Origin: Vibrio alfacsensis
Lineage (GTDB): Bacteria; Pseudomonadota; Gammaproteobacteria; Enterobacterales; Vibrionaceae
DNA length: 64,000 bases
Direction: 5' to 3'
Assembly (NCBI RefSeq): GCF_003544875.1
Contig: NZ_CP032093.1
Location: forward strand, 744,001-808,000
Positions within the stretch are counted from its first letter, which is position 1. Each line of letters begins with the position of its first letter. The notes beneath the pieces were generated by a model. The model saw only the letters and a program-made list of their open reading frames with translations. It did not search any database and was not told the DNA's origin. Both the position numbers and the translations under genes were made by a program. Positions 1-26,105 of the stretch are shown one piece after another.

Positions 1-1
1 C

Positions 2-2337
2 GAATTTATACAAGGTGTGTCATTTGATGGGGCCGAATTAACAAAAGGCGCTGGTCAAATCGAGTATATGTTCGATTACGATAACCGAACCCTAACTGTT
101 TTCCTATCGAGTGATATGTTCGATTACAGAACAGAAGAAGAATTCCATTCACCATATCGTGAGTCGAATGCATTGGTTAATGAAAGTGATTTATATGTGT
201 TTTCTAGTGGTGCTAACCGCAACTTTAACTGGTCAAACGACACAACACTAGGCTTGCCATATGGACATATTAACTTTGATACACAATATAGCTACCAAGA
301 TCAAACACTTGATGTTTTTACAGGGGTTTATGACCTTGATCTGGCAGGGCACCGATTAATTACGGGATATCAGCAATTAGGCAGTCGCTATAACAGTCTT
401 AATAGTACAGACTTCCTTAACTATGGGGCTGATTACAGTGGTTATATGCTAACGTTCGGCTCTAGTAATAATTTAGTCAAAGGGGGAGTACATTCGCGTA
501 ATGCATTAGGTTTTTATACCCCGCAATCAGGGCAATTAGAAATCCTCCGGGATGGAAAAATAATCTATAGTCAAGCCGTAAAGCAAGGGCAAAATTCGAT
601 TAGTTATGATGCATTACCTAAAGGAGTTTACACTATTACGTTGCTGGTAAAGCAAGGTGAAAAGCAATTAGTAAACGAAACACGCAGCATCGTCAATAAT
701 GGCGATAGCACGTTATTTGTCGGCGACTTTGACTATAACGTCAAAGTTGGAGCTTTGGATAAAGGTGAACCCTACTTAGAGGGTGCATTGTCGCATCGTT
801 TGACGGAACGAAGTCTGCTAGGTGGAAGTATTACCAGTGACATGAATTCATATATGTTACGTTTGGGGGGCAAATATCATTTCAATGATATAAGCACGGT
901 ACAATACCTCGGTGGTTTTTTTGATACAGGATCATCATATTATCAGGGACAATTATCGGTTGGGCCTGTCGGTATCAATATGCGTCGTTTTGATGCGAAA
1001 GGATCCTCTGTTGATTTAAGCCAAGCGTTATACGGTGAGCAAGATATTGTCGAGTACGGCGTGAGTTATTCTGCCCCAATTTTAGGTGGTAATGCTTATA
1101 TGAGCTATTATCATATATCGATCGATGATAAAGATTTTGAAACTAATAGTGATAACTTTTCTCTATCTTGGAGTCACTCTTTGGGAATTTAAGTCTAAAT
1201 TCCAGTTACAGTATGAGTGATGATAAAGATGACTCGCTTTCATTCGGAGTGAATTGGTCTTATGACATTACCGATTCAATCACATACGCAACATCAGTTG
1301 TAACGGATAACGGTGGTTTAGATTATGTTAGCCAAGATTTTATCTTAAATCGTTCATGGGATAACCACGATGCATCCATCACTGTTGGAGCAAAAGTACA
1401 GGATAGCTCTTTAGAAAATGAATTGTCAGCTTATGGCAGTGGCTCTAACGAAATGTTCCGTTATAACGCTTATGGGTTCTTTGGATCGGATGGCCATTAC
1501 TCTGCATCAGGGACGTTGAGAAGCACACAAATTGTCAGCAAGGATGATATTGCAATCACCAAAGAGACGGGGCGTGCCTTTGTTACAGTGAATCCTCAAT
1601 GGACATCGCAGCCAATTACTGACAATGAAATAAGCTATACGATCTATAAGAATGGAAAACGACAAAATGGTGGTGGCGTTAATCCAGAACAATCATTTAT
1701 CGTGCCCCTGCCGGTTTATTCAGATGTTCGATTTGAATTAGATACGGAATACAGTGACGTTGAGGTGGATGTTAAATCGCAAGACCGTTTTACGATGCCT
1801 GGAACGTATTATCAATTGGATAGTCAAGTTACCCCGTTGCGTAGTCAAGTGTTTTTGCTGAATGATATTGATGGAAATTCAGTCGATGAGGCATTATGTA
1901 TTGGAGAGGGATGCAAAAGCGTGAGTGATGTTACGGAAGGTGTCTATCGAGTAACATTCCGTCATGAGCAAAGTTTTCATTTGGTATCGGAAAATAGAAT
2001 TTGTATTTTTAACCCAGAACATTTTGGTAACAGCTATGTTAACTCTTATTGCTTAGAAGGTTTAGATAACTTAGATGAGGATTCTGAGTTGGTATACAAC
2101 AACATGAAGTATATCGGTGTGTATCAATCGACAGAAACCACACTGAAAATTATTCAGCGACTCGAAGAGCTGGGGCTTGCTTCTAAGTATGTCGCAGTCG
2201 GTGATCAATTGTATGTATATGTACGTTACGAAAGTGACTTTACTGTGGCTCAAGTTCAAGAGCTGCAAAAACTGGAAACACATCTTGTTTCGACTAAATT
2301 TAAACCTGAGCACTTATTTAGGGTAACAAAGCTATGA
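2..2337 (+). CDS. CS1-type (TcfC-like) fimbrial outer membrane usher, 5'-truncated, frameshifted
   Basis: The reading frame is open from base 2, so the N-terminus lies outside the window. About 778 residues remain. The protein is beta-strand rich with many alternating aromatic and polar residues, and has an E-set-like segment near QSGQLEILRDGKIIYSQ. This fits the CS1/alternate usher family (CooC, CfaC, TcfC) rather than the classical FimD type. An usher exports and orders chaperone-bound subunits through the outer membrane. A one-base shift near 1180-1186 (in a TTT/GGG stretch) splits the frame: the first part stops at 1192 and the second resumes with no loss of usher-like sequence. The stop overlaps the chaperone start by 4 bases, as in a coupled operon. 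Family call by recognition only. Confidence 0.75.
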
Positions 2338-3062
2338 AAATTGTAAAACTGACAACAATTATTGTCATGCTGAGCGCAGCAATGAATGTGCAGGCTTTGG
2401 GCGTTGACTCATTAATTAAAGTGATGGATGATTCGCGTGATGTTATTACGATCAGCAATAATGACGGTTTTCGACAGTTTGTTAACTTGAGCATCTCTGA
2501 TGTTGATGTCGTGGATGGTGACCTTGTGGCGACGGCATATAACAAAGAGAATATAGATTCGTGGTCACTTGAAGTACAGCCTAGCAAATTGATCTTAGAT
2601 AATGGTCAAAGTAAGCGAATTTCCATTCGTTACCTTGGGAATGATTCACGTGAAAAAGATAAAGTTTATGCCATTAATGTAGTGCCGACACCTTATTATG
2701 CACAAGATGAAACGCCTCCGAATACAGTGCAAATTGTTATCGGTGTCGCTCCTTATGTTGTCCTTGCTGCAAAGCAAGATAAGCCGTTAGCTTATACGGT
2801 TAAGCATGAGGGGGAATATGTTCGTGTGAAAAACTTAGGTAATACTTATTTTCGCGCGAATTTGAAAGCCTGTGATAGCATTGCTTTAAAAGTTCCTGTC
2901 AATCAATGTATTTCTAGCTCTCATGTTCTATCTGGTCGAGAGTTAAAAATACCACTGCCAGAAAAAGCGGGTAACAATGAAATAGAGGTTTCTTTTAGCA
3001 CGCACTACAACACATACAAAGAAACGTTTGATTTAACTGCGGGGCAGGTGAAAAAGAAATGA
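2334..3062 (+). CDS. CS1-type fimbrial periplasmic chaperone
   Basis: A 242-residue protein with a signal peptide (hydrophobic to about residue 21, cleavage near VQA-L). Two beta-rich domains follow. The first has the chaperone-like pattern WSLEVQPSKLILDNGQSKRI around residues 75-95, comparable to the surface-exposed strand of CooB/CfaA-type chaperones. It would hold unfolded pilus subunits in the periplasm and deliver them to the usher encoded just upstream. The start overlaps the usher stop (ATGA), and its own stop overlaps the next gene by 4 bases, so the genes are translationally coupled. The frame is intact, unlike its neighbours. Confidence 0.75.
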   Translation: MKIVKLTTIIVMLSAAMNVQALGVDSLIKVMDDSRDVITISNNDGFRQFVNLSISDVDVVDGDLVATAYNKENIDSWSLEVQPSKLILDNGQSKRISIRYLGNDSREKDKVYAINVVPTPYYAQDETPPNTVQIVIGVAPYVVLAAKQDKPLAYTVKHEGEYVRVKNLGNTYFRANLKACDSIALKVPVNQCISSSHVLSGRELKIPLPEKAGNNEIEVSFSTHYNTYKETFDLTAGQVKKK

Positions 3063-4094
3063 AGATAGCTGCGTTTCTTGCTTTTATTTTTATACTTTCC
3101 CCTGCCACGAGCTTTGCAATCGTAATGTCAGGTAAAATAAGTGCGGTTGATAACTTATGGGTATCGGCTCAGAACGAACAAGACGGGCTTGTTCCCAGTG
3201 AGTGGGAGTTACCTCTAGGACTCCCAACGGGAGAAAGTTTAATACCTGGTTCGGTAATGTCCAATGCCTCTAAAACGGTGACGTTAAGCAATGGTAATGA
3301 AAGTATTCATTTGGATGTGTCTATTTTAGGTATTCAATATATGGTAGATGCCTATGATCAATCCACCTCAGATAATCAAGGAACAGCAAAGACGAGTTTA
3401 GCGACCAATAGCATTACTGTAAAAGGGATGGGTCTTGGTGATAAAAGTTGATATTTACTCGTAACAGTTCAATGATAAAATTCTATAGACCTATTTTAAA
3501 AGATATTTCTATTCATGATCTGAAAAACAGTCTTGATGGAAAATCAAAGGGTCTTATCGAGGAACGCTGCCCGTCGTTTTCCAATATGACTATTATCGAG
3601 ATGGTATACGCATTAAAAATATTGTTAGTTCTAATCTACAAGTGATCATTGATTACAATCCAGCCATTATTTTTGATGCTGTTATTACGTCTGGTCTTGA
3701 TGGAAAGTTAACCCCTCGTTACCATGGTCACCCAGAACCGTTGGTCAGTGCGCAAGGAGTTTATGGCGTTAGGGTTCGCGGTGATTTTAGCTCAGGCTTG
3801 AGAGCAAGGGTATCAGATACGACTAAGCAGTATTCACTTAGTCGAGAGCAAGTTTCCAATAGCATTGATCATCAGAGTATTAATTACAGTGTTACTTGTA
3901 CTGTTGGTTGCTTGGGCAATAATGTTCTTATTGATGATGGCAGAGCAAGCGTAAACTTTACTCAGTTAGATAACATTAATAAGAGTGAATCCAATATTGA
4001 ATTGATGGTTCACTTTGAAAATAAATCACTTAATGATCTTGTTAACGGTAGTTACAATGGCCATTTTCAAGTGTTATTTGAAGCTCAATTATAA
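3059..4094 (+). CDS. CS1-type fimbrial tip/minor subunit, frameshifted in three segments
   Basis: A signal peptide (MKIAAFLAFIFILSPATSFA) starts a protein of about 345 residues once the three segments are joined. The segments are 3059-3451, about 3448-3555 and about 3555-4094. The shifts sit at an AAAA run near 3440 and an AAAGGG stretch near 3550. The C-terminal half is pilin-like: it has a Cys pair in SVTCTVGCLG and ends GSYNGHFQVLFEAQL, like the final donor-strand region of CS1-family subunits. The length matches two-domain tip proteins such as CooD/CfaE (about 360), so a tip adhesin or minor subunit is more likely than a major pilin of about 150 residues. Position directly after usher and chaperone supports this. 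No major pilin is seen in the window; it may lie further left. Confidence 0.55.
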
Positions 4095-4113
4095 ATAATT
4101 TTAGGTGGACACT

Positions 4114-6462
4114 ATGAAGTTTAAATCCTTAGTCCTTTCTGTTAGTGCGGCTCTATTTTTGAGTGGATGTGGCGGCCAGGAAGACAAACCAAAGGCAGAG
4201 GTGCCAAGTGACCCTAATGAATCGTATCATATGCGTACGCTTGACCGTTTATTTGCAAGTGAAATGGGTCGTGCAGTTCAATTTAATATCAACGATCTGG
4301 TTATTGGTGGCGGTGACCATGCTATAAAATGGTTGTCTGAAAGTACAGACTTATGTGGATTAAGTTATGAACCATCGGGTCAGACTAAGTTAACTATTAA
4401 CCATGTTGGCCGTTGTGACTATGATTATTCAGCTATAAGTCATGATGGTATTAAAGTACATCTAAAATTACATTGGTATCAAGTGAAGAAAGCACTACTA
4501 CGTTATCTCCGCTATCGGTCCCTTTATTGACAGGTACTTCCACCAAAATAAATTTGCGTGAATTACTTGGTGATAGCTTATTAGGCTATACTTTGAGTGA
4601 TGAGTTGATCTTAGAAAGTTCAACGGAAGAAAATCGGGGAGTGGTTAATAAAACAGCTGATCTTGAGATCAGCTATAGATGACATTGGAGATTACAGTAA
4701 AATACGAGATTATCCTAAATCCCAGATTAGATGTTGAGCAAGTGATAGAAGTTGACTTAAGTTCACTTGATGGTGTAACGGTGACAGATGATGATGGTGA
4801 ATGGCAATTATCTAAAGTCATGAGTGTTGGTGCTACCGTAGCCCCTGTCGCGCCCGATAATACTGAAAACAAAGCATTTACATTCAGTGCGGCTATTGAT
4901 GGTGTATATGATGTATCTTATGTAGTATCTGACCATCATAATGCTCACTCAATTGGAGTAATACGCTTTAACGTCGGTCATGGTGGCGTCTCTCCTGTTA
5001 AGAGTTGGGAAAAGATCACTGCGACACAGGGCGAAGTAAGCCGTACTTATTTACCGACGCCTATTCATTCAGAAGTACAAGCAATGGGTAATACGTCGTA
5101 CCAGTATGAGAAAATTGGTACACAAACCTATCAAGTTGCTACATTGTCAAAGTTTGATGCAACAAAATACTGCAACACTCAAGGTGGACGACTGCCAACC
5201 GAGGAAGAACTTACATTCCTTTGGCAGCAGCGAGATGCTGAGTCAGTGAGAGAAAAGTTTAAGAAAATTCCAAAGCAGGTGAAGTATTGGTCTAATACAT
5301 CGTTAATTTCCATGTTAGATGGCACTGTTGAACCTATTGACGAGCAAGTGGGATATGTATCTTGTATTCAAAATGATCAGTTTATTATTACCGCCTTGCC
5401 TGATTTATCAAGCGAAGATGCCGTCATTAATGATGAAGTGATTGCAGGGAAAACGATTCCAATCAACATTACTCTTTCTGGAGGGGATGTTGATGTAGGC
5501 AATATCTCAATTAGTGGTCATGTAGATCACGGAGAGTTAGATTGTCCAACCCCAACCAATGGTTCGGGGCAAACTTCGTGTGATTTTAACTCGACTAAAG
5601 CCGGCTCAAGACAAGTCAGATTGGTCGCCTCTCAATACGATGAAGGCGTTCAGCCTGAAGCCTATTTGAACATAGCGGTAACGGGAGATCCTGAACCAAC
5701 GAAACTTCAATATAATGAAGTAATAGTTAAGATGAATGCAAATCAAACAAAATATGATGAAGAATTTGCCAATACCGAAGATACGACGACTAGCCTTAAA
5801 GTTACAGTCCAAGATGAACATGGAAATGGTGTCAAAATATAAATATTGATTCTTGGGTTACTAATGTTCGCACTGCTGAAGCCCCAAGACTTCCTCCAGA
5901 GGACGTGAGAGAACAGAAGCATCCAAGTTTAACTGATAATAACGGTAATATGATGATTTATTATCAAAGTAAACTAGCTGGAATTATCTATCCGAGATTT
6001 ATCCATCGTGCTTTTGATTATAAATTTAATATGGGTTTTACATTGACTGATGGTGCCTACTTTCATAATGCTGGAACTGCTGCAATAGGTAGTCATGAAG
6101 ATGTACTTTGGGTAGAAACGAATAGAAGTAATATATATCTTGTTGACGAGAATTTGAACGTGATCGAGAAGACTCCCTGTTTTGAAGATTGTGTTGCTGT
6201 TCGGTATGATTATAGGCTTTATAGCGATACTCATGATGTTCTTCATGTGGTCGTAAGTGGTGGTGATGGAAAATTCAAATATGCAATTTACAATTCAAGA
6301 AAAGAACATGGATACAAAGCGAAAGGCTTAGGATACACCTCAAAACTAAGAGACGCCGATTTTTTCTATACAGCAGGACATTCAGTATATAATTCAACTC
6401 CATTAGAAGTTACTGAACCAACGAGTCTTGGATGCTCAGCTGAATTTGAACCTTGTAATTAA
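4114..6462 (+). CDS. Large surface lipoprotein with Big-1/Ig-like segment, frameshifted; putative adhesin
   Basis: The ATG at 4114 follows a good ribosome site (TAGGTGG, five bases upstream). It begins a lipoprotein signal with lipobox LSGC (Cys about residue 20). Joined over shifts near 4485, 4680 and 5835 it gives about 780 residues. Recognisable parts are a region with YCNTQGGRLPTEEEL (about 5170-5215), like the lectin- or FGE-like segments found in large Vibrio Ig-domain adhesins, and a Big-1-like stretch with SLKVTVQDEHGNGVK near 5790-5840. The C-terminal part (5850-6462) is Cys-containing and has no family I recognise. It is the last gene before a strong terminator, so it is probably co-transcribed with the fimbrial genes. 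Function as an adhesin or pilus-associated lipoprotein is inference. Confidence 0.5.
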
Positions 6463-6477
6463 CGTATTCATACAATA

Positions 6478-6506
6478 AATAAAGCGAATCAATGATTCGC
6501 TTTATT
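6478..6506. terminator. Rho-independent terminator after fimbrial/lipoprotein cluster
   Basis: A perfect 13-bp stem (AATAAAGCGAATC / GATTCGCTTTATT) closes on a 3-base AAT loop, 15 bases past the lipoprotein stop. It separates the fimbrial operon from the sensor kinase gene. Confidence 0.8.
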
Positions 6507-6635
6507 GCTAATAACGTCTTACAGCATAGGATTAGAGAAATAGACCGAAACGAGAGGCGTATGATATTGAATGAGTTTAATGTAGTATGAAATGCGCTGA
6601 TGTTAGAGACTAACCAGGGAATAAAAATCAAGCAA

Positions 6636-9600
6636 ATGAATAAACTGTTGATATTGTTATTGCCTATCATGATGACATTTAGTGCCTTAGCTAAGGAAGC
6701 TGAACAATCTAAGTTAATAAAGATAGGTGTTCCTGCCGATACTCACAACCCATTTTGGGAGTACTTATCCATCGGGTCTATTTAACGACTTAGCGACACT
6801 CATTATGGACCACTTACATCTTAATTTTGAGTATGTAGCGATGGAATCAAGTGTTGCCGCAAGACAAGCTCTTAAGCAAGGTCATATCGATATGATGTTT
6901 ACTTATCGTAATGAGAAGACAAAAAGTACCGATTTTGTCTTTTCTGACCCTCTATTTGAAGACGCGGTAGTCGGCTGGGTTACTCCTAAGCAAGAGCGCA
7001 TCCCTCTTAATAAAAATCGTTGGGTATGTTGGAAAGGTACTGTCTTCTGTGACATTGCTAAAAGCTTAGGTTACCCTATTGTTGAGGTTGACAACAATGA
7101 GGGTTTTTACAAAAAAATTAACGCAGGTGAAGCTGAGGCTGCTATTGGGCTTTATCAATCATATTTATATTATTTTAAAATAATGATATTGAAACAGAGA
7201 ATATTACATTCAATGAGCAGTTTGGTAATATACAAGCGGTTTTGCATTAGATATAAAAAATATAGCGTTACAAAGAAAATAAACGCCATTATTTTGCATC
7301 TTAATGAAAGTCATAAGAATTTTCTGAGAAGCATGGATAGCAAATATAATATCCATGATAGTCCGTATGATAAGTGGCTTAGCACGGAAAATATTATTAG
7401 TATAGCCTCGGAAATGACATATTTCCTTATTCTTATTTTGATAATGAATCCAATAGCGAGCAAGGGTTTGTTCATGATGTGTTTGATAAAATCAGCGCAA
7501 TTACGCCTTTAAATTTTCAATATATTCCTTTAAATGGACAATCTGCTGAAGCTCTCCTTCAACAAGGTGTTATTGATGTTGTTCCCATCGTAAAAAACAT
7601 CATCCCTTGCAGATGGATTAAGATACTCTTCTGATTTAATTGATGTGGAATTTGTTTTTCTTGAAAGTAAAGAAAAGTAATATTAATAAGGTCGGAATTT
7701 TGGATAGGTTTGGTTTTACAATTACCGAAGGTTTATTGATAATACGTTACTCTATTCACAAGTTGAGCTTTGCTTCAAGATCTTGCTAAAGGCAAAATAT
7801 CACATGCTTATATTAATAAGCAGTTGTTAGAAAGCATTTATGCGAAGGTTATGGTGAAAATATGGGGTTTACTATTATTCCAAGTGGTAATCATGTCAAT
7901 ATTGATATCAAAGCCCCATGCTTTTCGAATTGAAGATAAAAATTTAGTCACGTTAATAGAAGAAGCATTCCATATTTTTACTCAGAAAGAATTAGATTCT
8001 ATGCTAAGAAAATACAGCAAAGTTGAATATAATATTGGTTATCAAAAGAGTCATGTGGAATACTTTGCCGTTTTAGGTTTTATATTATCTTTTGTTTTTG
8101 TTTTTGTCTATCTTTCCATGTCAAAATTAAAAGAAAGAGCTATTGGAGCCAATAAAAACAGAATTATCGGAAGCTCAAAGGCTTTGGTTAGTAGATATAC
8201 TTGACAATATTCCAAATGCCGTATGTATTAGTGATGATGTAGGGGTTATATTAAGTAATCGTGACTTTAAAACATATTGTTAGAGTTGAATTTTAGCTCT
8301 GATATAAACTTTGTTAACTATATTATTAGGCAAGTTGGCGTCGAATTCGTAGATGAGTTTTCAAAAGAAATATATATAAAAAATCAGCTTAATGCGAATG
8401 ATAAAAGGAATTTTAACGTAGTTAATAGTGCGATTCCCATTATGCTAAAATATAAATTTGCAAATGATGGTCTTATGGGATATCACTGTTCAGAAAGAAA
8501 AAGAGCAGGTTCTTATTAGTTCGCATCTTGAAACAAAGAAAGCACTCAATTTGAAAAGCAGTTTTGGCGATTATTAGCCATGAACTTAGGACTCCTATTT
8601 CCGGGATTATTGGAAACCTGGAGCTCTTGGAGCATAGAATCAAAGATGAACTGAGTAAAAGCATGTTACAGAATGCTATCTTGTCAGCTGGAAAATTGAA
8701 GTTATTGGTTGATGATATTCTAGACTTTTCCAAACTTGATGCAAGTCAATTGAAAATAAGTCATGAAAAAGTAAACGTAGCGAAAGAGCTCAGTCCGGTT
8801 TTAGGAATTATGAAGCATTAGCGTTGCAAAAGGTTTGAATTTTCACATTAATTGGGAACCAAGCCGATACTTAATTTATAATCTTGATATGTTACGCCTT
8901 AATCAAGTGATTTCGAATGTGCTTTCTAATGCGTTAAAGTTTACTAATCAAGGACTCATATCGGTTAATGTCATCTTATCATCAAACCAATTGCAAATTA
9001 TTGTTAAAGATAGCGGGATCGGAATGACAAATGAAGAGTTAGATCATATCTTTGACCCATTTGTTCAAGCTCAAGATAATATAGCTCGAAAGTATGGGGG
9101 GACTGGGTTAGGCATGGCTATTGTTCAAAGTCTTGTCAACCTTATGGGAGGTAAGGTGACTGTTAGCAGTTTGCAAGGCGTTGGGACGACCGTTAAAATT
9201 CAAATTGAAGCTCAAGGTGAGAATGTCGACTTACTCCGAGATACTTCCCCTATGCTTATTGTGAATGATCTAAGGCTCGCTCGTTGGCTAGATGAATTGA
9301 CGGTTTGCTATCAAGCGACTGAGGATTGTAGTATCGATCTATCGCAATATAACTTTTATCCAGATGAAGTCTTCGATTTTTTATCGCATCACCATTTGAC
9401 GTTAAACGAAATCGATAAGGTTAATACCTCTACCTCTACCTCTACCTCTACCTCTACCTCTATTGCTTTGAGTGGACGTATTCTGGTGGTTGAAGATGAC
9501 CCTCTCAACTGTAAGCTGATAAAAATGCAATTGGACTCTTTAAATCTCGAAAGCGTTGTCGTCAATACTGGATATGATGCTCTTGATACTCTTAAGATGT

Positions 9601-10158
9601 CGACGTTTGATGTTCTTATAACCGATTATCATATGCCCAAAATGAATGGTTTAGAATTGACAAACTACATCAGAGAATCTTCACAACATTTTTCCGATAT
9701 TCCGGTTGTCATCTGTACAGCAGACAACGCTGAAAGTGTAAAAAGAGAGCGCAAAAAGTGGGTGTGAATTCAATTTTATATAAACCTTATTCTTTAATCG
9801 ATTCATTTACCCAATTAGAATCTTTTTGAGCATAAAGTCATCTGCATCATCAAGAACCAACGTGATAAAGTGGTTAAGTGTTTTATCAAAAGAAAATCAA
9901 ACTTTGATGTCTCAAGCGGTTATCGATTCAATGACACTTTCGATGCATGATCTCACTGATGATAGCAAAGAAGTCAAAGAGGTTGCGCATCGACTAAAAG
10001 GGGCAACGGGTGCGCTAGAGTTAACTGAAGTCTCGAATTTGTGTCAGCAGTTAGAATCTAACCCTGAAGATGAGCAATTAAAGCAAGTGTTATTAGCTGA
10101 TATAAAGGAAATTATCAAAGATGCCAGCTTATACCTAAAACAGCTAGGAAATAATTAA
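6636..10158 (+). pseudogene. VieS/BvgS-like hybrid sensor histidine kinase, many frameshifts
   Basis: Joined over at least eight one-base shifts this is about 1170 residues. Domains in order: signal peptide (MNKLLILLLPIMM); a periplasmic solute-binding (SBP_bac_3) domain at about 6720-7400; a second one at about 7410-8030; a membrane helix (FAVLGFILSFVFVFVYL, 8060-8130); and a PAS-like segment (8190-8510). Next come HisKA with SHELRTP (phospho-His codon at 8579), HATPase with SNALKF, DSGIGM and GGTGLG (8840-9210), and a Thr-Ser repeat linker. A receiver follows (LVVEDD and LITDYHMP, 9475-9800), then an Hpt domain (VAHRLKGATGA, about 9985-10020). This is the layout of unorthodox kinases such as BvgS, EvgS, RocS1 and VieS. 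The shifts lie mostly at A/T runs; all motifs remain, so sequencing error is likely, but decay is possible. The VieA-like regulator starts 4 bases downstream. Confidence 0.7.
9426..9461 (+). repeat. Hexanucleotide microsatellite (ACCTCT)x6 in the sensor kinase linker
   Basis: Six perfect tandem copies of ACCTCT encode six Thr-Ser pairs between the HATPase and receiver domains. The unit is six bases, so copy-number change would alter linker length without changing frame. Confidence 0.95.
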
Positions 10159-10162
10159 TATT

Positions 10163-11898
10163 ATGAAAATGCTAATAATAGAAGATGATATCTTACAATC
10201 ACTAAATTTAAAATTACACCTGAATGATTTGGGTTATAACAATGTGGTTATTGCGAATAGTCTTATTTCGGTACAGGAGATGACCGAATCAGAACGATAT
10301 GATGTTATTTTTTGTGATATTAGAATGCCTGATGCCGATGGCGTAGCATTATTATCTACTTACTTAACCAGTCAATTGAACAGTGCGGTTATTATTGCTA
10401 GCGGTGTTGATGACAATGTACAAAAGCTCACAAAAGGAATGTGTAATCAATTAGGTTATTCTTATGTAGGAATATTAAAAAAACCGTTTAGTCGTCAAGA
10501 TTTAGATATGGAATTAAAGAGGTTTTTAGAGCATAAATATAAAGAAAAATGCACAGCTCCGATCATGTCCTAACGATTGATGATGTAAAAAGCACTACAT
10601 GATGACCTATTCTTTAGTGTCTATCAGCCTCAATTTAGCTTTAGTAGCGGAGAGTTGGTTGGTGTTGAGGCTCTTGCTCGTTTGGAACACCCAGAATATG
10701 GTGTATTGAGTCCATCTTGTTTTTTGTCTCAAGTGGCGAAATTAGGATTAATGAGTGAGTTTTATCGCTCTATGTTAGCAAAAGCGACGACAGCGATGTC
10801 GCTGTTAAATGGCACAATCCAACTATCAATGAACATAAACAAAACATTGCTAGATGGACCGCTATATGAACATACGGTTGAAATATGTCGTGTTACTAAT
10901 TTCCCTTTTGAGGCGCTTACGCTTGAGTTAACAGAAGAGCAAGCTTACCATCTTACTCCCGTCGCCTTAAGGAATTTAGCTAGGCTTAGTCTACTTGGTG
11001 TGTCTTTTGCTATTGATGATTTCGGAACAGGTTATGCCTCATTGGAGCAATTAATAGATCTGCCTATTTCTGAGTTAAAATAGACCGTTTATTTATTACA
11101 GACATTGTTCATGATTATAAACATCAGCAACTTACTATAGTTGCCGTCCGTTTAGCGCAAGCTCTAGGATTAAAATGTACAGCAGAGGGGATTGAGGATC
11201 AGGAAACATGGGAGTTTCTTAAAGAGTTAGGGGTTGATTCCTGCCAAGGCTACTATACAGGCCACCCAATGGGCATCCATGATTTAGCAATTTTACATCG
11301 TGCAGCAAAAAAAATAGATGTAGCGACAAGTCGCAAAAAGGAACTTACTCCGATTCTGTTTTTTGATACACAAACGGTTAGGGCCAATGCAATGGTCAAG
11401 TTGATAGGTAAAGAATTACCTGAGCATGAGATACATGCTGTTACTCATGTAGAAAACTTGTTGCACCTTTTACGCGATCTTCCTGTGAACGTTATTGTTA
11501 TTGATGCTGAATGTCTTTCGACGATGATTGCAGAGGATCGAGAAGCGCTTGAGGAAGAGGTAAAAAAAAGAACCGTAATATTACTGTCAAACGATGCAGT
11601 TATTGGAACCAGCAGCTTTATAGCGTCAATTATTACAAAGTCAGAGAGCATTACGAACACCGTAAAAGATTTAACTAATCATATATTGACGATCAGTATC
11701 GGGACGGTAAGACAAAATCGGATCAGATTATCAAAACGAGAGCAGGATGTTGCTCAACTCCTATTAGGGGGGTTTTCTAATAAATACATCGCTTATGAAT
11801 TGGGGATAAGTCAAAAACAGTTAGTACATTTAAAACCCGAATTCTACAAAATGAATGTTAAGTCGGTATTAGAATTGGCTAAAGAACTCAGTTTATAG
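10163..11898 (+). CDS. VieA-like response regulator: REC-EAL-(REC-like)-HTH_LuxR, frameshifted
   Basis: About 578 residues when joined over shifts near 10560, 10592 (AAAAA) and 11080 (AAAA). The N-terminal receiver has IIEDD and the acceptor Asp in FCDIRMPDADG. The EAL domain (about 10620-11270) keeps the c-di-GMP phosphodiesterase signatures VEALAR, MNIN, LELTEE, DDFGTGYASL, LKIDR (across the shift), AEGIE and CQGYYTG, so it is predicted active. A receiver-like segment (PILFFDTQ ... IVIDAE, 11350-11680) follows. Last is a LuxR-type HTH (LSKREQDVAQLLLGGFSNKYIA, 11725-11885). V. cholerae VieA combines receiver, EAL and HTH in one protein of similar size. It starts 4 bases after the sensor kinase stop, forming one operon. 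It would hydrolyse c-di-GMP and bind DNA under control of the partner kinase. Confidence 0.75.
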
Positions 11899-12030
11899 TA
11901 GAGCGTGCAGAGGTCTATTTTTGGTTTTGTTAATTCTTATGTTGTATTTTTATTAAATGTATTTATCCCAAATCTGGTGTTTTAAAGCAAAGCGATATTG
12001 AAATTTGTTATACAGGTTGTAAGTTGATTT

Positions 12031-12233
12031 ATGCCATATGAAAACTACTATTCATTAATAGAAGAGAGAATCAAATCAGCGAATAGTTTAGAGAACTTAA
12101 TTATAAGAAAAAGCGGATTAACATTGGGCATGGTGGTTTGCCAGTGAAAATACTTGACGGAAAAATTTCCTATTATACATATAACCAGTCTTCACCTCGC
12201 TTTAAAAGTAAAAGAAAATTAAATGGAGTTTAA
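12031..12233 (+). pseudogene. Small hypothetical protein, frameshifted
   Basis: The ATG at 12031 opens 38 codons (MPYENYYSLIEERIK...) that stop at 12147. A +1 shifted frame around 12115-12135 continues with GGLPVKILDGKISYYTYN and stops at 12233, giving about 67 residues overall. The two parts read smoothly as one protein and the break is close to short A/G runs, as elsewhere here. I recognise no family. No clear ribosome site. It could be a degraded gene fragment. Confidence 0.3.
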
Positions 12234-12300
12234 GTTTGGCAGTGCTTTGATTTTTATTAAATTCATCATACACTCACATGAGTAAAATTTATACAATAAA

Positions 12301-12366
12301 AATTCTAATGTGAGAATTTTCTGATATTGCCAAAATTCAAATGTGAGAATTTTCTGATATTGCCAA
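12301..12366. repeat. 33-bp direct tandem duplication with internal palindrome (operator candidate)
   Basis: Two adjacent 33-bp copies differ at one position. The first copy contains AATTCTaatgtgAGAATT, an inverted repeat of 6-bp arms with a 6-bp spacer; the second has AATTCA in the left arm. They lie about 90-150 bases upstream of the acfD-like start, a position suited to a regulator-binding site. Binding by any protein is inference. Confidence 0.6.
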
Positions 12367-12454
12367 GATTTATAATTTGTGTAATTTTTATCGATTGCTG
12401 TAATGGGGATAATCTCATTATAGTAAAATAAAAGTAATTTATTTTGGTAATTTT

Positions 12455-15400
12455 ATGCATAAAAATTGTTCTTAGCCTCTATGGTTTCTATGGCCATTAC
12501 GGGCTGTAATGAGACAACCATCAGTGAAACAAATTTAGCACCAGTCGTTGATAACATCCCGCCACTGACGGTAGGGAAAGACCAAGATTTTTCTTTTGCT
12601 ATTAAGGCCGAAGATTCTGAAAACCTTAGTTATAGGCTAGATGAACGCGCGCCTGATTGGATAAATATTGATTCAAACACAGGTGTATTATCTGTAGATT
12701 CAAGCCAATCAGTCGAGGGATTATATTTTTAATGTTCTTGTTTCTGATGGCATCAACGTGGTCGCTCGAACAATAAAACTGACCGTTCTTGGCGCTACAG
12801 ACACAGATAACACTTTGCCAGTCATTGCACCAATCCAAATGCTGACTGCACGTACTCACTACCCACTCAATTATTTAGTATCCGCAGCTGATGCAGATGG
12901 TGACATTATCACATTTGCATTACTTGATAGCCCTGAATGGGTGAACATTAACCCAGAAACTGGCATGTTAACAGTTGTGGCTAAGCCAGGGCATGAGCGT
13001 GAAGATGCTTACCTATTTAAAGTGCAAGTGAGCGACGGTAAAGGGTACTCTGAAAGTTCAATTTCACTGAAAGTGGTCTATGCAGAAGCACCAGAAGTAC
13101 CTGAATTTAGTAACAGTTTACCGAATGTAACAAATATCCCAGCCCTGCGCATCGAATCTAATAAAACAATAAGTCATCGTGTTATTGCAACCGATGCGGA
13201 TGAGCACACTCTTACATTTAGCATTCAAGATAAACCGCATTGGGTCTCAATTAATGCTTTGTCTGGATTAATAAAAGTAGAACCTGAAGACGTCCATATT
13301 GGAACGCATAATTTTAGTGTCATTGTTACGGACGGCTATAATGATATTGTAAAACCATTGCAAATCGAAGTAACGGAAGAAGAAGAAGCTCCAAAGCCTC
13401 AGAATGCTCCGCTTGTTCAGGATATCCCTCAATTAACAGTAAAAATTGGCCAAGAAAAGACTTATCGAGTTCGTGCGTATGATAAAGATGGAGATATCCT
13501 TTCGTATGAAATTTTGAATAAACCAAGTTGGCTTTTTATTGACCATAATATTGGGCTTATTATTGCGTCTCCTGACAATAAAAATTATATCGGCTCTCAC
13601 GAATTTGTATTAGTAGTGAGTGACGGTTATACAAAGGTGACAAAATCAATCAATATCTCTGTTGAAGAGGCTGATGCCCCTGTATTGCCTGAAAACAAGC
13701 CTCCCGTCATAGAAGTGATCCCAGATATTCTAATGAAAGCCGAGCATTCAGCATCACATCGTGTAACAGCAAGTGACGAAGATGGTGATACGCTCATTTA
13801 TTCAATGGGAACCCCAAAAAGTTGGATTGCTATTCACCCACGATCTGGAATGATGTCATTTAATCCTACATTAATTGATGTAGGTGCACACGATCTCACT
13901 GTACAGGTTAATGATGGCAAAGATACCGTAAGTAAAGCATTCTCATTGACTGTAGAGCGCCCTTCATTAGTACCTGATGATAATGAAGCTCCTGTTGTTG
14001 CACCAATTGCCAAGATTGATGCGATTGCAGGGCAAATCTTTGCGTATCGTGTACAAGCGAGCGACATTGATGGCGACGCCATATCGTATGCTCTTATTGA
14101 AGCACCAAGCTGGGTAACTATTGATGCGGAAGGTATCATGGATATTACTCCAGAGACCTCTATAAGTGGAAACTTTACATTTAAAGTGGTAGTTTCTGAT
14201 GGCGATCTTACAACAGAAACTGGCGTGACAATCACCGTACGAGAAGCGTCAGCACCTGTGCCTGTAAAATACCACGCTAACTTGTTGATCTCAGGCAAGC
14301 GAGTGAGTGGTGATGTGGAATGTAATAATGATGATTTATCTGATGGCAAGTTCATTGTCGATGAAACTGAATTCGTCAGTTGCCATTTTGGCGCAGTCCA
14401 TCTTGGTGATTTAGAACCTAAAAAATACACAGGTACAGGTGAGCGTCCAGATATAACAACCGTAAACTTCAACCTTGATGAATATCATGGAATAAACACG
14501 GAAAATGCAACGAAAGTACTGCAATCGATTAGTACATGCTCGAGTCTTGAAAATATTTGTTTAAGTTCATTTGATAGCATTGATATAGAAACAGTTTTTA
14601 CTAATTTAGAAAATAACTCTCTTGTTGATGAGTTTGTTGCAGCCAAATCTGAAGAAGCCACTGATTCAATTGATAAAGCGCCTAGCTCACATGTGGATAC
14701 TGCTATTGTGCCAGTTATTTCTCCAGGTGGTTCGAGCGATCTTAACGCTGGCTTTGTTTCATCAAGCGCAGAAGAAAGCTTGACATACAAGCCGAGTTTA
14801 GAATCACAAGTCCTAACAACAAGCGTACTGACTGACCATCGCGGTATTCCCCTTAGTGGTGTGAGCTATTTTTCAAACAGTGCTCGTGGCATCACTAATG
14901 ATAGTGGTGAACTGGAGTATCGTTGGGGTGAAACGATTACATTTGGCATTGAAACTTTCACCTTTGGCTCTGTCAAAGGTAATCAAGTTAAATATAAGCT
15001 AACTGATGTCACGAACAATGACGTTAAGAAAGACAACATACAAGCACTTATTGAGCGCTATGCCACGGTAGGCGATGGGATTATCCTTGTTGGTCAAGAT
15101 GTCCATGATACGTTTTCATTGTACCCAAATGTGATTAACGAGATCATCAACCTAAGCCTTCCAAATGGTGGCTTACTTGAAGGTACGGATTTCTCATTAC
15201 CGAGAGAGTTTGATTTACAATTTGAACAAGGTCTAGCTCAAACGATAGATCAAGCACTTAATAAAAACACTTTCTCGCTCAATCGTATCCATACATATTC
15301 ATCTCCAAATGATGAGACTTACGTTTCAGATTCACTCAATGAAATTTTTGAACGTGTACGTTCTTTTCACGTGTTTAACGATAACTATGGTTACTACGGT

Positions 15401-18400
15401 GCGACGGGTCATACACGAGGTATGCGTACCTTAAATATGTCTAACCGAGCATTTCCAGTTATGATGCCTCGTAATGACATTAACCGCTTGATTCCATTTG
15501 GGGAGCAGCAAGCATGGACGCGAGATGGCAAACCTTACATTGCTGAACATGCTTCGATTGAAATGCCACCTATTCCGGTTGTATCAAGTGATAACGCTAC
15601 CTACGGTTTTCCATTTGTCACGGCAGGAGAAATTGGTGCAGGTAAAGTGGTCTTCATGGGCAATAGTATGTACCCGTCCATTTTATCCTGTCCTGATAAT
15701 TACTGGGCAAATGGTTATGGGGAACTGACACCGAATAGTCAATCAAAAGTGTGCGTATCTTCAGTTACAACTGAAGATGGTCGTTACGATAATGGTGACA
15801 TGAAGCAATTTTTATCAATTTATTTGATTGGTTTTCAACACAACCAAACAAGAATATTGGTACAAATATTAGCCATGGAATGATTGAAGTAGCGAATGTT
15901 CACCATGGTTACCGCTACCCATTTTCATTAGTGATGCGTATGGTTTTCATCGGTAACCAAATTAGAATCTGGCGGTTACGACAATATCGAACCAGATAGC
16001 ATGCCCATTTTGATCATGCAAGGTTATGAAATTAATGAATTAGCTGAAAATAATACAGCAAATATTAATAAGCCGACACTTACCCCTGAAGACATTACTG
16101 CATTAATTAAGTACATCGATGCTGGCGGGAATGTTCTTTTTATGGACGCTATTTCTGAGGTTAATCCAGAACCCATTGGTCGCCTTGCGGACTCTGCGGG
16201 GGTTTCACTAGGGGGACAGAATGTCACTCCTACCGACGATAGTCATTGTGATCCAGGTAGTAAGTACTGTAACCGAAACCCTAGCACAAACACTAAACAA
16301 GCTCTATCAGTAGTAACACTGCATCGTTTTGATGATTTGCCAGGTGGAAAACCACCATTCACAGTAATGCCTGATGGCTCCGTAGAATGGGCGCCACCTG
16401 CAGATATGCCACCTCTACATATTCCTATGTATGAAGTGCTCAATTCTGATGGGACTAAAGTAAAACGCCCGGCCCTCATTCGAGTGAACAATGAAGCAGA
16501 GCGTCAAGCTGCAATAGAAGAACTTCAAACGGCATTTGAGGGGACACCGGTATGTTCGAACGAATATGAGTACGAGTTTAACTGTATTGAAACTCGTTCC
16601 GGAACAGGGATTTTCGAACGTGGGTATGGCCGTCCAGACTTTGCTCGCTATAATGTTGATGTTAAGAGCATGATTAAAGCTGCGAATATTGGTGGAAATG
16701 TTCAAAAGCTACTTGATCATGAACTCTACTACCGAACAAAGGGTTCAAAAGGTTTCCGTTTACCGACTGTAGAGTTAAATCAAACTTACGATAACTTATC
16801 AGTATGGCTATGGAACGATAACCAGTATGCCTTTGATGCGGAAGTACAAGATGAACTGGGATTCGAAACATTAGTAACTTACCTGAACTGTTATACTAAC
16901 GATGCTCACGGTAGTGGGGCCTCATGTCCGGATGAGTACCGAACGATGCTGGTCTCGAATGGAATGCTTCATGAGAATGGCGAGTTAAACCCTAGTTACC
17001 CATTAAACTATATGGAGAAGCCATTAACCCGTATTATGTTGGGCCGTTCATTCTGGGATTACGACATTAAAGTTGACACTATACAATACCCAACGCGTCC
17101 GAACGCAGCCGGTACTAGTGCCAGCGTAGAGATCGAAACTCAAGGCAACGCCGTTCACTACTCAGCAGGTAATATGCAATCAACGGGGCTGTGGGCTAAG
17201 CAGCTAGAAGAAGTAACTATTACTGATGGTGTACCTGCAACGGTTACAGTAATGTTGGCTGACGATTTAACGGGCCGTCCTCAACATGAAACAAACTTAA
17301 ATCGTCCACCTCGAATGCAAATGTCATTTGATCATGACGGCATCCGAACGGTCATAAAAGTACCTTATGGTGGTTTGATTTATATCCAGCCCCTCTCAAC
17401 CACGGATGAAAGAGCAGTCTTTAATTTTGATAACGTTGTTAAAGCGGCTTATTACAAGGATGGAGCTTGGGTCACAACTCCGAGCGAAGCGGGGGCTCAG
17501 ATTGCGGAGATTGATACTGGCTCATTCGTTTATACAACACCAGTAAACAATGTTAAGTCTATCGATATTGTTAAATTTAATGTAGATATGAATCGATTTG
17601 CTGACGCTGCAAGTGACTTTTATGGTCGTGACGAAGTAACAGATACAGGTTCACATCGCCGCTTTACTTACGATACGCTTGATGGTTTTAGACATCGTTT
17701 CGTAAATGATGTGCAAATATCAATTGGTGCTGCTCATAGCGGTTACCCTATTATGGCCTCAGGATTTAATGTGAACGGAAGTAATGTACCGACAAATGCA
17801 GTAGATGATTGGTTATTGTGGCATGAAGTGGGTCATAACCTTGCAACTGCACCATTTACAGTTAATGGTTCTACCGAAGTCACTAACAATATCCTAGCGC
17901 TATACATGCAGGAGCTTGACGGGCGTAACGCAAATCCGCAAATGGACCGTATTAGTTATGACATTCAGAAAGCCCCGGCTTGGCTAGCAGCAAATGAAGG
18001 TCATGGGTGGGCGCACGGAGACGCTGGTATTCGTCTCGTCATGTTTGGACAGTTGAAAATTTGGGCTGAAAGCCACTTTGATATCAACAACTGGTATGCA
18101 GAGGGTGATGAGAAACCAACCGTTTATGGTAATGACCAAGGCTGGAACCTGTTTAAACTGATGCATCGAAAGGCTCGTGGTGATGTGCAAGGCGATTCAG
18201 GTGTTAATCACTGTAATACTGCAGAAAGTGGATTCTCAGATGCAGATCAATTGATGATTTGTGCATCGTATGCCTCTGGCTATGACTTAACGGATTTCTT
18301 TACTAAGTGGAACGTAGGCGAATCGTCATCGACTACACCTGAAGGTGAGAAAGTTTACAGTGGTGGTATTTCAGCCGCAGCAAAATCTTATGTTGCAAGA

Positions 18401-18469
18401 CTCGATCTACCAATGCCTAAACAGAGCCCGCTGTTAGTTAATGCTCTGCCTAAACAAGAAGAAAACTAA
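12455..18469 (+). CDS. acfD: AcfD/SslE-family lipoprotein, M60-type metallopeptidase (putative mucinase), frameshifted
   Basis: Joined over one-base shifts near 12462 (A run), 12727 (GGG), 15815 (T run) and 15935, it gives about 2005 residues, longer than V. cholerae AcfD and E. coli SslE/YghJ (about 1500). The N-terminus is a lipoprotein signal (LFLASMVSMAITGC). Six Ig/cadherin-like repeats follow (12540-14260), each with a D-x-DGD-like loop, a P-x-W-x-x-I motif and a closing VxDG. Then come the AcfD core (VKYHANLLISGKRVSGDVEC onward) and a C-terminal M60 domain with HEVGH at 17822-17836 and a Glu 14 residues after the second His, matching HEXXH-X(8-28)-E. Relatives are secreted by type II secretion and degrade mucins. 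In V. cholerae acfD belongs to the ToxT-controlled colonization genes. A strong terminator follows. Confidence 0.8.
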
Positions 18470-18502
18470 GATAGAACGTTAGTTTAATTTTATAATAAAC
18501 CT

Positions 18503-18538
18503 AAGCCACTAAGTCTATACCCATAGGCGTAGTGGCTT
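18503..18538 (+). terminator. Rho-independent terminator after acfD-like gene
   Basis: A 9-bp stem AAGCCACTA / TAGTGGCTT is followed by TTATTATT, 33 bases after the stop codon at 18469. Confidence 0.75.
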
Positions 18539-18559
18539 TTATTATTTGTATAAGTAATC

Positions 18560-21501: not shown

Positions 21502-21849
21502 TTATGCATAGATAGAGTAGTTCAAGCTATATCCAAGTTTAGAAGTGTTCCCATCGATGTTTTTATTATTCATCCCCGACTCTAATGATATCCTATTTCG
21601 TTCGCAGTAACTAATAGGAAGATTAAAACATAGGAATTCATTTAGCTGCTTACCATTAAATGGCTTTGGTAAAATCTGATGAGAGTTTACATTTTGATTT
21701 AGAATAAACCACCTATTAGTCATCAAGGCATCATCGCTACCAATGACTAGCATTGTTATACTTAGCATTCTGTCAATAGAGTTGATTACATCTAGAATTC
21801 CAGACAAAGAATTCGAACTATTTATTGATAAATCAACCCTAGCATCCAA
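21502..21849 (-). pseudogene. Receiver-like (REC) response-regulator fragment
   Basis: The frame contains MLVIGSDDALMTNRW and then QILPKPFNGKQLNEFL, resembling the beta4 strand and the conserved Lys-Pro-Phe region of a receiver domain. Just upstream in the same frame is GHIAIIDLDARVDLS, which could be the phospho-acceptor strand, but that part has no start codon and ends at an in-frame stop near 21970. The fragment is therefore probably the remains of a longer regulator. It faces the IS5 relic. It may be related to the divergent receiver-like segment of the VieA-like protein; this is untested. Confidence 0.35.
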
Positions 21850-21969
21850 ATCAATAATAGCTATATGTCCATATTCTCTAACAAAGTTTCCAACTTTAAC
21901 AGGATATATATCACTTCTATTATTGCATTGAATTACCGACTTTATTTCACTATACGGTTCATGGTGCTT

Positions 21970-22299
21970 TTAATGAAGCTCCTGATAGGTTCAAATTGGC
22001 TAATTACCATTGCTAACATAAATTAAACAAGATTGAGTTGAAAGTAATAAATTAGACATTAAAGATTAAAAATTATCAATATCAGATAATTCCTACAGAT
22101 TGTGGGCAAGTAAGATACATTTACTTAAACAATCAGAGGTTATGTAATATTAGGTCATAACTCCCACGTAGTGATATCCAAGTCTTTTCCTAATTCGAGT
22201 GCATAGCTAGGAATTTCAATAATAGTTGTTACTTCGTTTTACAAGAATTGTTGTTCACTAAAACACTAACTCGATGATTACGATATGTATGGATTGCCT
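21970..22299. other. Non-coding AT-rich stretch
   Basis: No credible coding frame, hairpin or repeat was seen between the receiver-like fragment and the IS5 relic. Confidence 0.45.
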
Positions 22300-22790
22300 A
22301 AGAGCCGATCCCCAAAGGGATTTATTCTAAGCAATGAGGCCACAAGCAAAATGCAGCATGGCCTCGTTCTTTTCCCAACGAACAAGCAATCTACGATAAC
22401 GGTTTGCCAGCTGTGGGTTCTTACTTATTTTTTGAACCAGCTAAAGGCGCTTTAGTTGGGCAGTTATCCATTGATATCGAACGCCAATCAACACCCTCGT
22501 AAATCAGGCCATTTCACCAAAGTCGCTCAAAGATACCTGCATCTCGTCACTCTAGAAAACGACGATGTGCAGAGCTAGATGTACAAATACCGGTCGCATT
22601 TAGCGCATTCTACGGACAACCTGTTGTGAGAACAAAAAGAATGCTGTTCATGGCATGACGATTATCGACTCTCTTTCGATGTGTACCGAGTGGATGGTTA
22701 GTCTTGTGGATAGGCTGAAGAGGCTCAATTTTTACTTAAAGAGTATCAGAGATTAGGTATTGTGTTGAACTCATTTACAGTATTTTCAAT
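22300..22790 (-). mobile_element. IS5-family transposase relic, internally deleted
   Basis: On the minus strand the N-terminal part of an IS5-type transposase is readable (MNSILFVLTTGC, then WNALNATGICTSSSAHRRF and SMDNCPTKAPLAG; about 22450-22640). This is joined directly to the C-terminus (KNPQLANRYRRLLVRWEKNEA, MLHFACGLIA, stop at 22327). The catalytic middle is missing, and at least one shift and one premature stop are present. Exact element ends were not found. Confidence 0.7.
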
Positions 22791-22809
22791 AGGGGGTTGA
22801 TTTAACTCA

Positions 22810-22812
22810 GAC
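22810..22812. repeat. IS3 target-site duplication, left copy (GAC)
   Basis: GAC directly abuts the left inverted repeat and recurs at 24040-24042 after the right inverted repeat. Confidence 0.75.
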
Positions 22813-22820
22813 TGTAGTGG

Positions 22821-23660
<840 letters not shown>

Positions 23661-23668
23661 TTGGTCAA

Positions 23669-23975
23669 TCAGCGTGTACGTTCGAGTTCGTCCGACATTA
23701 AGAGAGCTGTGGCCTTTTTTAGAATAGACTTCTCTCGCTCCAAACGGCTAATGCGGGCTTCAAGCTCTTGAATTTTTTGCTGCTCAGGCGTCAATGCTTT
23801 AGAAGTAGGAGTTATCCCGTTACGCTCAGATTTTAACTGCTCAACCCAACGGCGTAAGACAGTTTGTCCCACATCAACAGCTCTACTCGCTTCTAAAACA
23901 GTAATTCTGGTCAAGCACTAAGCTTGCAGCTTCTTGCTTGAACTCTGGACTAAATGTACGACGAACTCTGGTCAT
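23669..23975 (-). pseudogene. IS3-family OrfA (HTH protein), frameshifted
   Basis: The ATG at 23975 begins MTRVRRTFSPEFKQEAASLV; a shift near 23915-23930 (in GTTTTAG) moves to the frame EASRAVDVGQTVLRRWVEQL. A leucine-zipper-like stretch (QELEARISRLEREKSILKKA) follows. This is the usual IS3 OrfA layout of HTH followed by zipper. About 100 residues when joined. Confidence 0.8.
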
Positions 23976-24147
23976 AAACACTCTCTTGGGTGGTAACTGT
24001 ACCACCTAAAATGGTGTCCGGCTTTATTAGACCACTACAGACAACACCTATTGAGATAGATTCTAAGTATCTTTTATTAGCTAAGCATGTTTAACGAGCT
24101 AAGCATCATGAAAATTCAGTCACTATAAATTTAAGCGTTATACAAAA

Positions 24148-24170
24148 AGACCGAGCACTGTGCTCGGTCT
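24148..24170 (-). terminator. Rho-independent terminator for the 66-aa gene
   Basis: A 10-bp perfect stem AGACCGAGCA / TGCTCGGTCT with a 3-base loop is followed by TTTTT on the minus strand, immediately after the stop of the gene at 24175. Confidence 0.85.
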
Positions 24171-24174
24171 CTGT

Positions 24175-24375
24175 TCATTCAAGTCTAGAAAATGCATTAG
24201 TAAAGGAGACGCTTTTTATCTTGTACTGCTGTTGATAAGCCAGAATAAAGTCTTTGATAGCGTCATTGACTGGAAAAACACAGTGTACATCTAACCCCTC
24301 AAGAAAGTGGTTATCGGCCATATCCCAGAAGCTTTGTAGCGAGTTACAAATGATGGTTCTCATAACAGTGCTCAT
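24175..24375 (-). CDS. Hypothetical protein, 66 aa
   Basis: A short minus-strand frame (MSTVMRTIICNSLQSFWDMA...) with plausible composition, directly followed by a strong terminator, which supports a real transcribed gene. There are two candidate starts, Met1 and Met5. No signal peptide or membrane helix. It sits between argA and the IS3 element and is the first gene on the core side of the accessory segment. Function unknown. Confidence 0.55.
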   Translation of the reverse strand: MSTVMRTIICNSLQSFWDMADNHFLEGLDVHCVFPVNDAIKDFILAYQQQYKIKSVSFTNAFSRLE

Positions 24376-24604
24376 CTTATTTGTTTAAGAATAACAGCTG
24401 TCCTTGATGTGTCATGCAGGTGGTAATCACAATGCAGTTTAGGGTGCGAAGAATTTGCACCTAGATCCATGGTTGATTGAGTAATGTACAATCAACGCGT
24501 GGATTATAAACAACGACATGCACATTGAAAAGGGAAAATTGGTCATCAATTATATGTAATGCATTGCATTATATTTTAAATAAAAGCGACTATAGCGAGT
24601 GATG

Positions 24605-25943: not shown

Positions 25944-26105
25944 TACCACAACTCCTTTGCTTATTTATGTTGATATTTTGTCTTTTTATTCAAATGTGCG
26001 CAAGGTAAATTTTGGAATGAATAACAAACATCAATAGGATGGCACTTTTTTATTTGATGAATGAGGAACTATAATCGGCCCTCTTATAAAATTCTGTAAA
26101 AGACC

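Follow-up and report, generated by a model that had tools for sequence, protein, structure and literature searches.

The cable pili of Burkholderia are CS1-like, and the CblRST system has two kinases and a regulator without an EAL domain. CblRST is presented as the phosphorelay controlling these pili (PMC3842833). That paper and a second one likewise link the Roc1 and Pvr/Rcs systems of Pseudomonas aeruginosa, with their unorthodox or hybrid kinases and EAL output, with the chaperone-usher fimbriae of cupB, cupC and cupD (PMC3842833, PMC3083521). In Vibrio cholerae, the third vie gene, vieB, encodes an inhibitor of the kinase VieS (PMC4352251). Here we analyse a window of 64,000 nucleotides from Vibrio alfacsensis (bases 744001-808000 of contig 1 in a genome of 4.91 Mb and three contigs), in the first 12 kb of which the genes for a CS1-like chaperone-usher fimbria, a VieS-like unorthodox sensor kinase and a VieA-like response regulator all lie on the + strand. 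No title or abstract opening found in the literature describes such a kinase and regulator pair beside fimbriae in Vibrio.

The kinase gene (6645..10158, + strand) is spread over many reading frames, and its pieces match the Pfam models SBP_bac_3 (periplasmic), HisKA, HATPase_c, Response_reg and Hpt. It aligns with residues 6-1158 of P0003 at 43-44% identity, compared with 33-41% for intact relatives. The regulator gene follows at 10163..11898 (+ strand), also in pieces, which match Response_reg, EAL and GerE and are 51-52% identical to the regulator of Vibrio sp. AND4. The hallmark of VieSAB, an SBP-HK-REC-Hpt kinase adjoining a REC-EAL-HTH regulator (HK, histidine kinase; REC, receiver; HTH, helix-turn-helix), is shared by the window pieces and AND4. 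A six-base unit (Ser-Thr) occurs in several copies at about 9425-9462, just before the REC domain of the kinase, and possibly forms a linker of variable length.

Relatives were sought in 227 genomes of the genus and 329 of the family. The window chaperone had a match at E<=1e-8 in 41 of the 227 genus genomes, the window genome included, and a close one (63% identity) in Vibrio sp. AND4 (G148). In AND4, genes for the lipoprotein, tip subunit, chaperone, usher, minor subunit and pilin follow each other on one strand, and a small gene, orf187, the kinase (1171 aa) and the regulator (584 aa) adjoin the pilin gene on the opposite strand, all as open frames. The AND4 kinase has one SBP match and an Hpt match slightly under the cut-off, and its regulator contains GerE. 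The same set with the same pair, in another arrangement, supports a link between fimbria and phosphorelay, and the adjacency on which the sequence-only reading had staked its case is not confined to the window genome. The conserved order that it predicted, from usher, chaperone, subunit and lipoprotein to vieS and vieA, was not recovered, since the AND4 pair is divergent and stands on the pilin side. The kinase and orf187 of Vibrio sp. Y29_XK_CS5 are 82% and 79% identical to those of AND4. Across the genus, in a search that scored the best five candidates per genome, an alpha-type usher lies within 30 kb of a REC-EAL-HTH regulator in at least 2 of the 227 genomes (window and AND4), and G078 has a shorter REC-EAL match 28 kb from an alpha usher. 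The base rate of ushers in the genus is low, the PapC type being present in 54 and the alpha type in 40 of the 227. The flanks of the AND4 locus (L050 8858-11495, L051 7706-9283) carry genes resembling those for injected effectors and a CesT-type chaperone, with Rac1-binding and kinase domains and an M91 match below the cut-off.

Phylogenetic trees place the window pair in a small group of its own. The window piece, AND4, G131, G049 and G121a form one clade with 100/100 support in the regulator trees (25, then 28 rows) and in the kinase tree (19 rows), and the regulator clade retains 100/100 with two more family genomes, G340 and G308, added to make 7 rows; the window is represented by a single piece in each case (a regulator piece of 274 aa covering 46% of columns and a kinase piece covering 25%), and the branch of G308 is long. 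REC-EAL proteins of Pseudomonas, Shewanella and Aeromonas fall outside the regulator clade. Six outgroups in one tree set and three in another were taken from 80 loci of a genome-contig scan with generic EAL motifs; no AND4-like locus was among the matches listed in that scan, the closest being 32% identical over most of the regulator.

Of the seven clade loci, four have chaperone-usher fimbriae, of three types, no more than 9 kb away, compared with none of the 19 other VieA-family loci examined in the stretches seen (hypergeometric p=0.0028 on 25 tree rows, with G131 and G049, and likewise window and AND4, not fully independent). Eighteen of these 19 loci are in the tree, and some are on short contigs (L110, 6.9 kb; L252, 10.9 kb; L102, 14.2 kb; L249, 15.0 kb). 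Altogether, 26 loci were examined out of 36 full-length REC-EAL-HTH places, window included; nine of the other ten are in the genus of the window, with no listed usher on the same contig, and the tenth is in G269. In G131, orf187 and an SBP-HD-GYP protein stand between the pair and a PapC/PapD operon that includes an OmpA-like protein, the usher and the regulator being about 8.5 kb apart. The SBP-HD-GYP protein (L095 7735-10875) joins SBP to HD-GYP-type HD domains and is a second probable protein related to cyclic diguanylate (c-di-GMP) at the locus. In G308, the regulator gene and a PapC/PapD operon, which includes Fimbrial_K88 and DUF5462 proteins, are divergent, with insertion sequence (IS) genes beside; Pfam finds EAL and GerE in this regulator and no receiver at E<=0.01, and no kinase match was found in the 20 kb stretch. 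The proposed link between fimbriae and regulator is thus strengthened by two further genomes, in which the clade lies near other chaperone-usher types.

Close relatives of the regulator beside three unrelated fimbrial kinds suggest a reusable control unit. We tentatively hypothesize that one clade of VieSA-type pairs has served as a plug-in cassette, paired at least three separate times with unrelated fimbriae (alpha, PapC/OmpA and K88-like) in the Vibrionaceae, and that the place of VieB as third component is taken in four genomes by a small uncharacterised protein. Several observations weigh against control of the fimbriae by the accompanying phosphorelay. Three of the seven clade loci (G121, G049 and G340) have no fimbriae nearby, and G049 is 94% identical to G131 at the DNA level over a shared 10 kb, yet is without the operon through the 4.6 kb to its contig end. 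Mapped on the tree, the fimbrial label requires three changes, a value also reached in 67 of 500 shuffles. Furthermore, the window and AND4 loci may stem from one event, and the window copy of the module is broken in the assembly. Finally, no kinase of this kind was found at 26 other alpha-usher loci in the stretches seen (5.9 and 11.5 kb visible on two contigs), so the link is not a general rule for CS1-type fimbriae and the genus usually does without it. EAL-type matches near these other alpha-usher loci (5 of 26, and LuxR-type matches at 2 of 26) were set aside as not significant; about 2.5 would be expected by chance if there are, as we assume, some 25 EAL genes per genome.

The pair has the kinase and regulator architecture of VieSAB but differs from it in tree position and in gene content. 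The AND4 kinase shares 30% identity with kinases named Vibrio cholerae. In both the kinase and the regulator trees the clade is separate, with 100/100, from a clade with P0009 (3890 members), which we take to be VieS, its relatives and the regulators of P0009-type loci, V. cholerae VieA itself being no row of the trees; identity with VieSA itself is not supported. A whole VieB-like gene adjoins the regulator in 11 of the 19 other VieA-family loci, whereas none was found near the pair in the window, AND4, G131, G049 or G308. In G121 and G340, which belong to the present clade, a VieB-like gene is nearby, beside another kinase.

The small gene orf187 (about 155 aa) is present in 4 of the 227 genus genomes and in 4 of the 329 family genomes, always near the kinase and regulator pair. 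Its distance from the pair is less than 1 kb in AND4, G131 and G049, and about 10 kb in the window, where the homologue (21565..22044, minus strand; 36-38% identity) is interrupted, with internal stops. A protein-database search with orf187 returned only AND4 and Y29_XK_CS5; its sensitivity was low, because it missed the known copies in G131 and G049. By analogy, one guess is that orf187 might inhibit the kinase as VieB inhibits VieS. The idea, formed by eye, that it is a degenerate receiver was abandoned (an hhalign comparison with A1 gave a probability of 1.3, and no PDB match reached E<=0.001), and its structural model is of low confidence (predicted local distance difference test, pLDDT, 55.6), which makes the fold search weak.

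With the Roc/Pvr-Cup systems the locus shares a chaperone-usher operon at the same place as a kinase and an EAL regulator. In Pseudomonas, the DNA-binding outputs (RocA1, RcsB) and the EAL outputs (RocR, PvrR) are separate proteins with opposed effects (PMC3842833, PMC3083521), whereas in the window and AND4 the two are fused in one protein. On the PvrR model the AND4 regulator reaches 168.5 bits, well below the cut-off of 580, and together with the position of the Pseudomonas REC-EAL rows outside the clade this speaks against Roc/Pvr orthology. The module may thus work like Roc/Pvr-Cup but is not a member of that system; the earlier suggestion of a Vibrio counterpart of Roc/Cup stands as a likeness of working and fails as a classification, the pair being neither VieSA nor Roc.

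A closer match to the Pseudomonas arrangement is found in G033 (L260 7032-19711), where a chaperone-usher operon of the kind in G131 (OmpA-like protein; usher 41% identical to that of G131) is followed by a Roc/Pvr-like trio. This comprises a REC-EAL protein (best PvrR, 258 of 580 bits), a REC-HTH protein (best EvgA, FimZ) and an SBP-PAS-HisKA-REC-Hpt kinase (best EvgS), none of them over the cut-offs of those models. Unlike the window locus, G033 thus combines a PapC-type usher with separate EvgA/FimZ-like and PvrR-like regulators, split as described for Pseudomonas (PMC3842833, PMC3083521). Since its operon resembles that of G131, one fimbrial type can be accompanied by either kind of regulator, and the fused arrangement of the window represents a second solution in the same genus.

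The condition of the window copy has to be considered separately. The named genes are present and co-directional, and their domains were confirmed, but nearly all are interrupted by frame changes and the usher starts left of the window; as assembled, the window copy of the module is not intact. Frame-aware alignments to intact relatives, at frame-shift penalties of 15, 20 and 26, gave 19 frame changes in 3.48 kb of the kinase at penalty 20 and 15 at penalty 26, with zero stops, and for the regulator 3 changes and 2 stops at penalty 20 or 8 changes and no stop at penalty 15. There are 3 changes in the usher and 2 in the tip gene. At penalty 15 the lipoprotein gene has 2 over 1.42 kb aligned, the orf187 homologue 1, and the chaperone and minor subunit genes 0, these last two being the only tested genes without a frame change; the counts cover the genes other than the pilin and AcfD-like genes. 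Four intact kinases (G121, G131, G211 and AND4) and one intact regulator (G121), used as controls, gave 0 at penalties 20 and 26.

One explanation is that these changes are real and the window island a dead remnant, a decaying locus that controls nothing in this strain. We regard this as doubtful, although the kinase has 4.3-5.5 frame changes per kb and flanking core genes have 0.36 events per kb (5 changes and 1 stop over 16.6 kb, affecting 5 of 19 genes, some of them at gene starts, where the choice of start may explain them), and this local excess leans towards decay. The absence of in-frame stops from the kinase, its undiminished identity to P0003, the preponderance of losses (26 of 27 changes, by the bookkeeping of the aligner) and the closeness to homopolymers (20 of 27 changes are no more than 8 bases from a run of 4 or more, where 9.7 would be expected) lean towards error. 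An unpolished assembly is also indicated by changes outside the island: genes that we named argA-like (24608-25949) and AmpG-like (36824-38169) by eye have one frame change each against the relatives compared, which is a sign of assembly error there, and 5 of 12 chromosomal resistance-nodulation-division (RND) genes are split between frames (coordinates read by eye; one plasmid match excluded). Three long aminoacyl-tRNA synthetase genes are whole, which fits either explanation, and of 15 EAL matches outside the window 13 have no stop, one has internal stops and one is a short partial match. The assembly carries errors, or wide decay, in many places, with the kinase in clear excess; with evidence on either side, the data do not distinguish real decay from an assembly error. 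Should the assembly be correct, the fimbriae of the window genome would have lost control by the kinase and regulator. A dead remnant in the window is compatible with any of the other explanations for the intact copies.

How might an intact copy work? From the gene content, the domain order, the adjacency in two genomes and the clade, all of them observed, we infer a signal, phosphotransfer, enzyme activity, promoter binding and a direction of control. In its intact AND4 form, the membrane kinase would sense a small molecule through two periplasmic ligand-binding domains, and a His-Asp-His relay inside the kinase would hand phosphate on to the regulator's receiver. The regulator may have two outputs, a fused EAL phosphodiesterase lowering c-di-GMP and a fused LuxR-type helix-turn-helix acting on the neighbouring fimbrial promoter. 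Judged from the genes themselves, the pair would in this way both control the adjacent fimbriae and lower c-di-GMP. Alternatively, the regulator might mainly control c-di-GMP and use its HTH only on its own operon, the fimbriae responding indirectly via c-di-GMP. The catalytic EAL residues are invariant in 7 aligned intact regulators, 4 of them from this clade, which fits the direct and the indirect route alike; we nevertheless consider the indirect one rather unlikely, as the regulators of the window, AND4 and G308 all contain GerE, and in the latter two genomes the fimbrial genes and the regulator or pair are divergently oriented.

The fimbrial genes, sensor and regulator of the window are joined in an inserted island of about 26 kb between recD-like and argA-like genes. 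In six of six relatives for which the stretch was retrieved, an argA-like gene lies less than 1 kb beyond recD on the opposite strand, whereas the two are about 27 kb apart in the window genome; the names of the recC-, recB- and recD-like genes left of the island were assigned by eye. In G095, the nearest relative by recD identity (85%), the match of the junction runs to the end of recD and picks up again at 24145-24411 and the end of argA. A repeat of about 500 bp at about -2255..-1754 (negative coordinates denote bases left of the window start) recurs inverted at 22324..22812 with 90% identity at the opposite end of the island, and is by eye a transposase remnant. Next to it lies the remnant of an IS3-family transposase (22813..24039, minus strand), 71% identical to IS3 transposases annotated on two V. 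nigripulchritudo plasmids, and then the right flank (24145..25949, minus strand) with the remnant of the recD-argA spacer and the argA-like gene, whose frame change is near the 3' end. The G+C content is 0.30-0.43 in 2-kb bins from 1 to 24000 and 0.42-0.47 beyond. The lowest value, 0.30, is at 20001-22000, a segment with few long open reading frames (ORFs).

Taken jointly with the control proposed above, we consider it probable that the island is a fimbrial locus acquired horizontally and travelling with its own phosphorelay. That the fimbriae, the phosphorelay and an AcfD-like gene are instead independent cargo of a mobile island, with a regulator that acts on unlinked genes, seems unlikely to us, since three fimbrial types near one clade and the other orientation in AND4 are hard to obtain from one hitch-hiking event, even though the island is inserted between recD- and argA-like genes and has inverted repeats and an IS3 remnant at its ends, the AND4 copy is flanked by other cargo such as the effector-like genes, most VieA-family loci examined are without fimbriae, and V. 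cholerae VieA acts on c-di-GMP, biofilm and virulence genes.

Left of the window, the fimbrial genes begin with a pilin-like ORF at about -1336..-821, whose start is 58% identical to the AND4 counterpart, followed by the gene for a minor subunit (-723..-274; 43% identity to AND4). The alternate (CS1-like) usher (1..2337, + strand) starts about 275 bases left of the window, at about -274, and lies in two pieces in different frames (2-1192, 1168-2337), which are 51% and 64% identical to the AND4 usher. The pieces exceed the Pfam cut-offs for TcfC (E=3.6e-15) and CooC_C (E=4.5e-7), which we take to be models of alternate ushers; the AND4 usher matches TcfC only. The chaperone, the tip subunit and the lipoprotein had no Pfam match over the cut-off and were therefore identified via their AND4 counterparts. 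The periplasmic chaperone (2334..3062, + strand) is whole, and neither PapD_N nor any other Pfam model reached the cut-off for it; its family profile gives a weak match to EcpB (E=0.019). The tip-type subunit (3059..4094, + strand; pieces 3059-3451 and 3642-4094) is 57% identical to a 345-aa protein of AND4. The large lipoprotein, a possible adhesin (4105..6462, + strand; pieces 4105-4530, 4679-5842 and 5905-6462), is 30% identical to residues 11-526 of a 929-aa AND4 protein, with weak FGE-sulfatase and Lcl_C matches, both below the cut-off. BLAST matches to the AND4 lipoprotein, perhaps owing to repeats, occur at 20 of 26 other alpha-fimbria loci. Searches of Pfam and PDB sequences with the pilin and minor-subunit ORFs and 14 tip proteins found no CS1-type major pilin or CblD/CfaE-type tip, distant homology being possible; PDB matches of the tip subunit, from single-sequence and profile searches, were discarded as chance.

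Between the lipoprotein and kinase genes, where a terminator had been read from the sequence, there is indeed a hairpin of 13 pairs (6478..6506). In the scan it qualifies for the minus strand alone, and 17 sites were found in 1-19500 compared with 11.7 +/- 3.0 in shuffles, so a + strand terminator at this position is weakly supported. Downstream of the regulator, an AcfD/SslE-like gene in three pieces (12466..18469, + strand) matches the Pfam models He_PIG (Ig-like repeats), DUF4092, M60-like_N and Peptidase_M60. In the window, one Rfam match alone exceeds the gathering score, a CsrB/RsmB RNA far to the right (63357-63663, + strand; 92.2 bits).

To our knowledge, the target genes of VieA-type regulators are poorly understood, as is the reason for combining c-di-GMP degradation and DNA binding in one protein. 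A regulator of this type beside a fimbrial operon, intact in AND4, has an obvious target promoter and makes the question of VieA output testable. The contrast between the fused pair and the Roc-like trio of G033, which accompanies an operon like that of G131, would show whether fused and separate outputs serve the same function.

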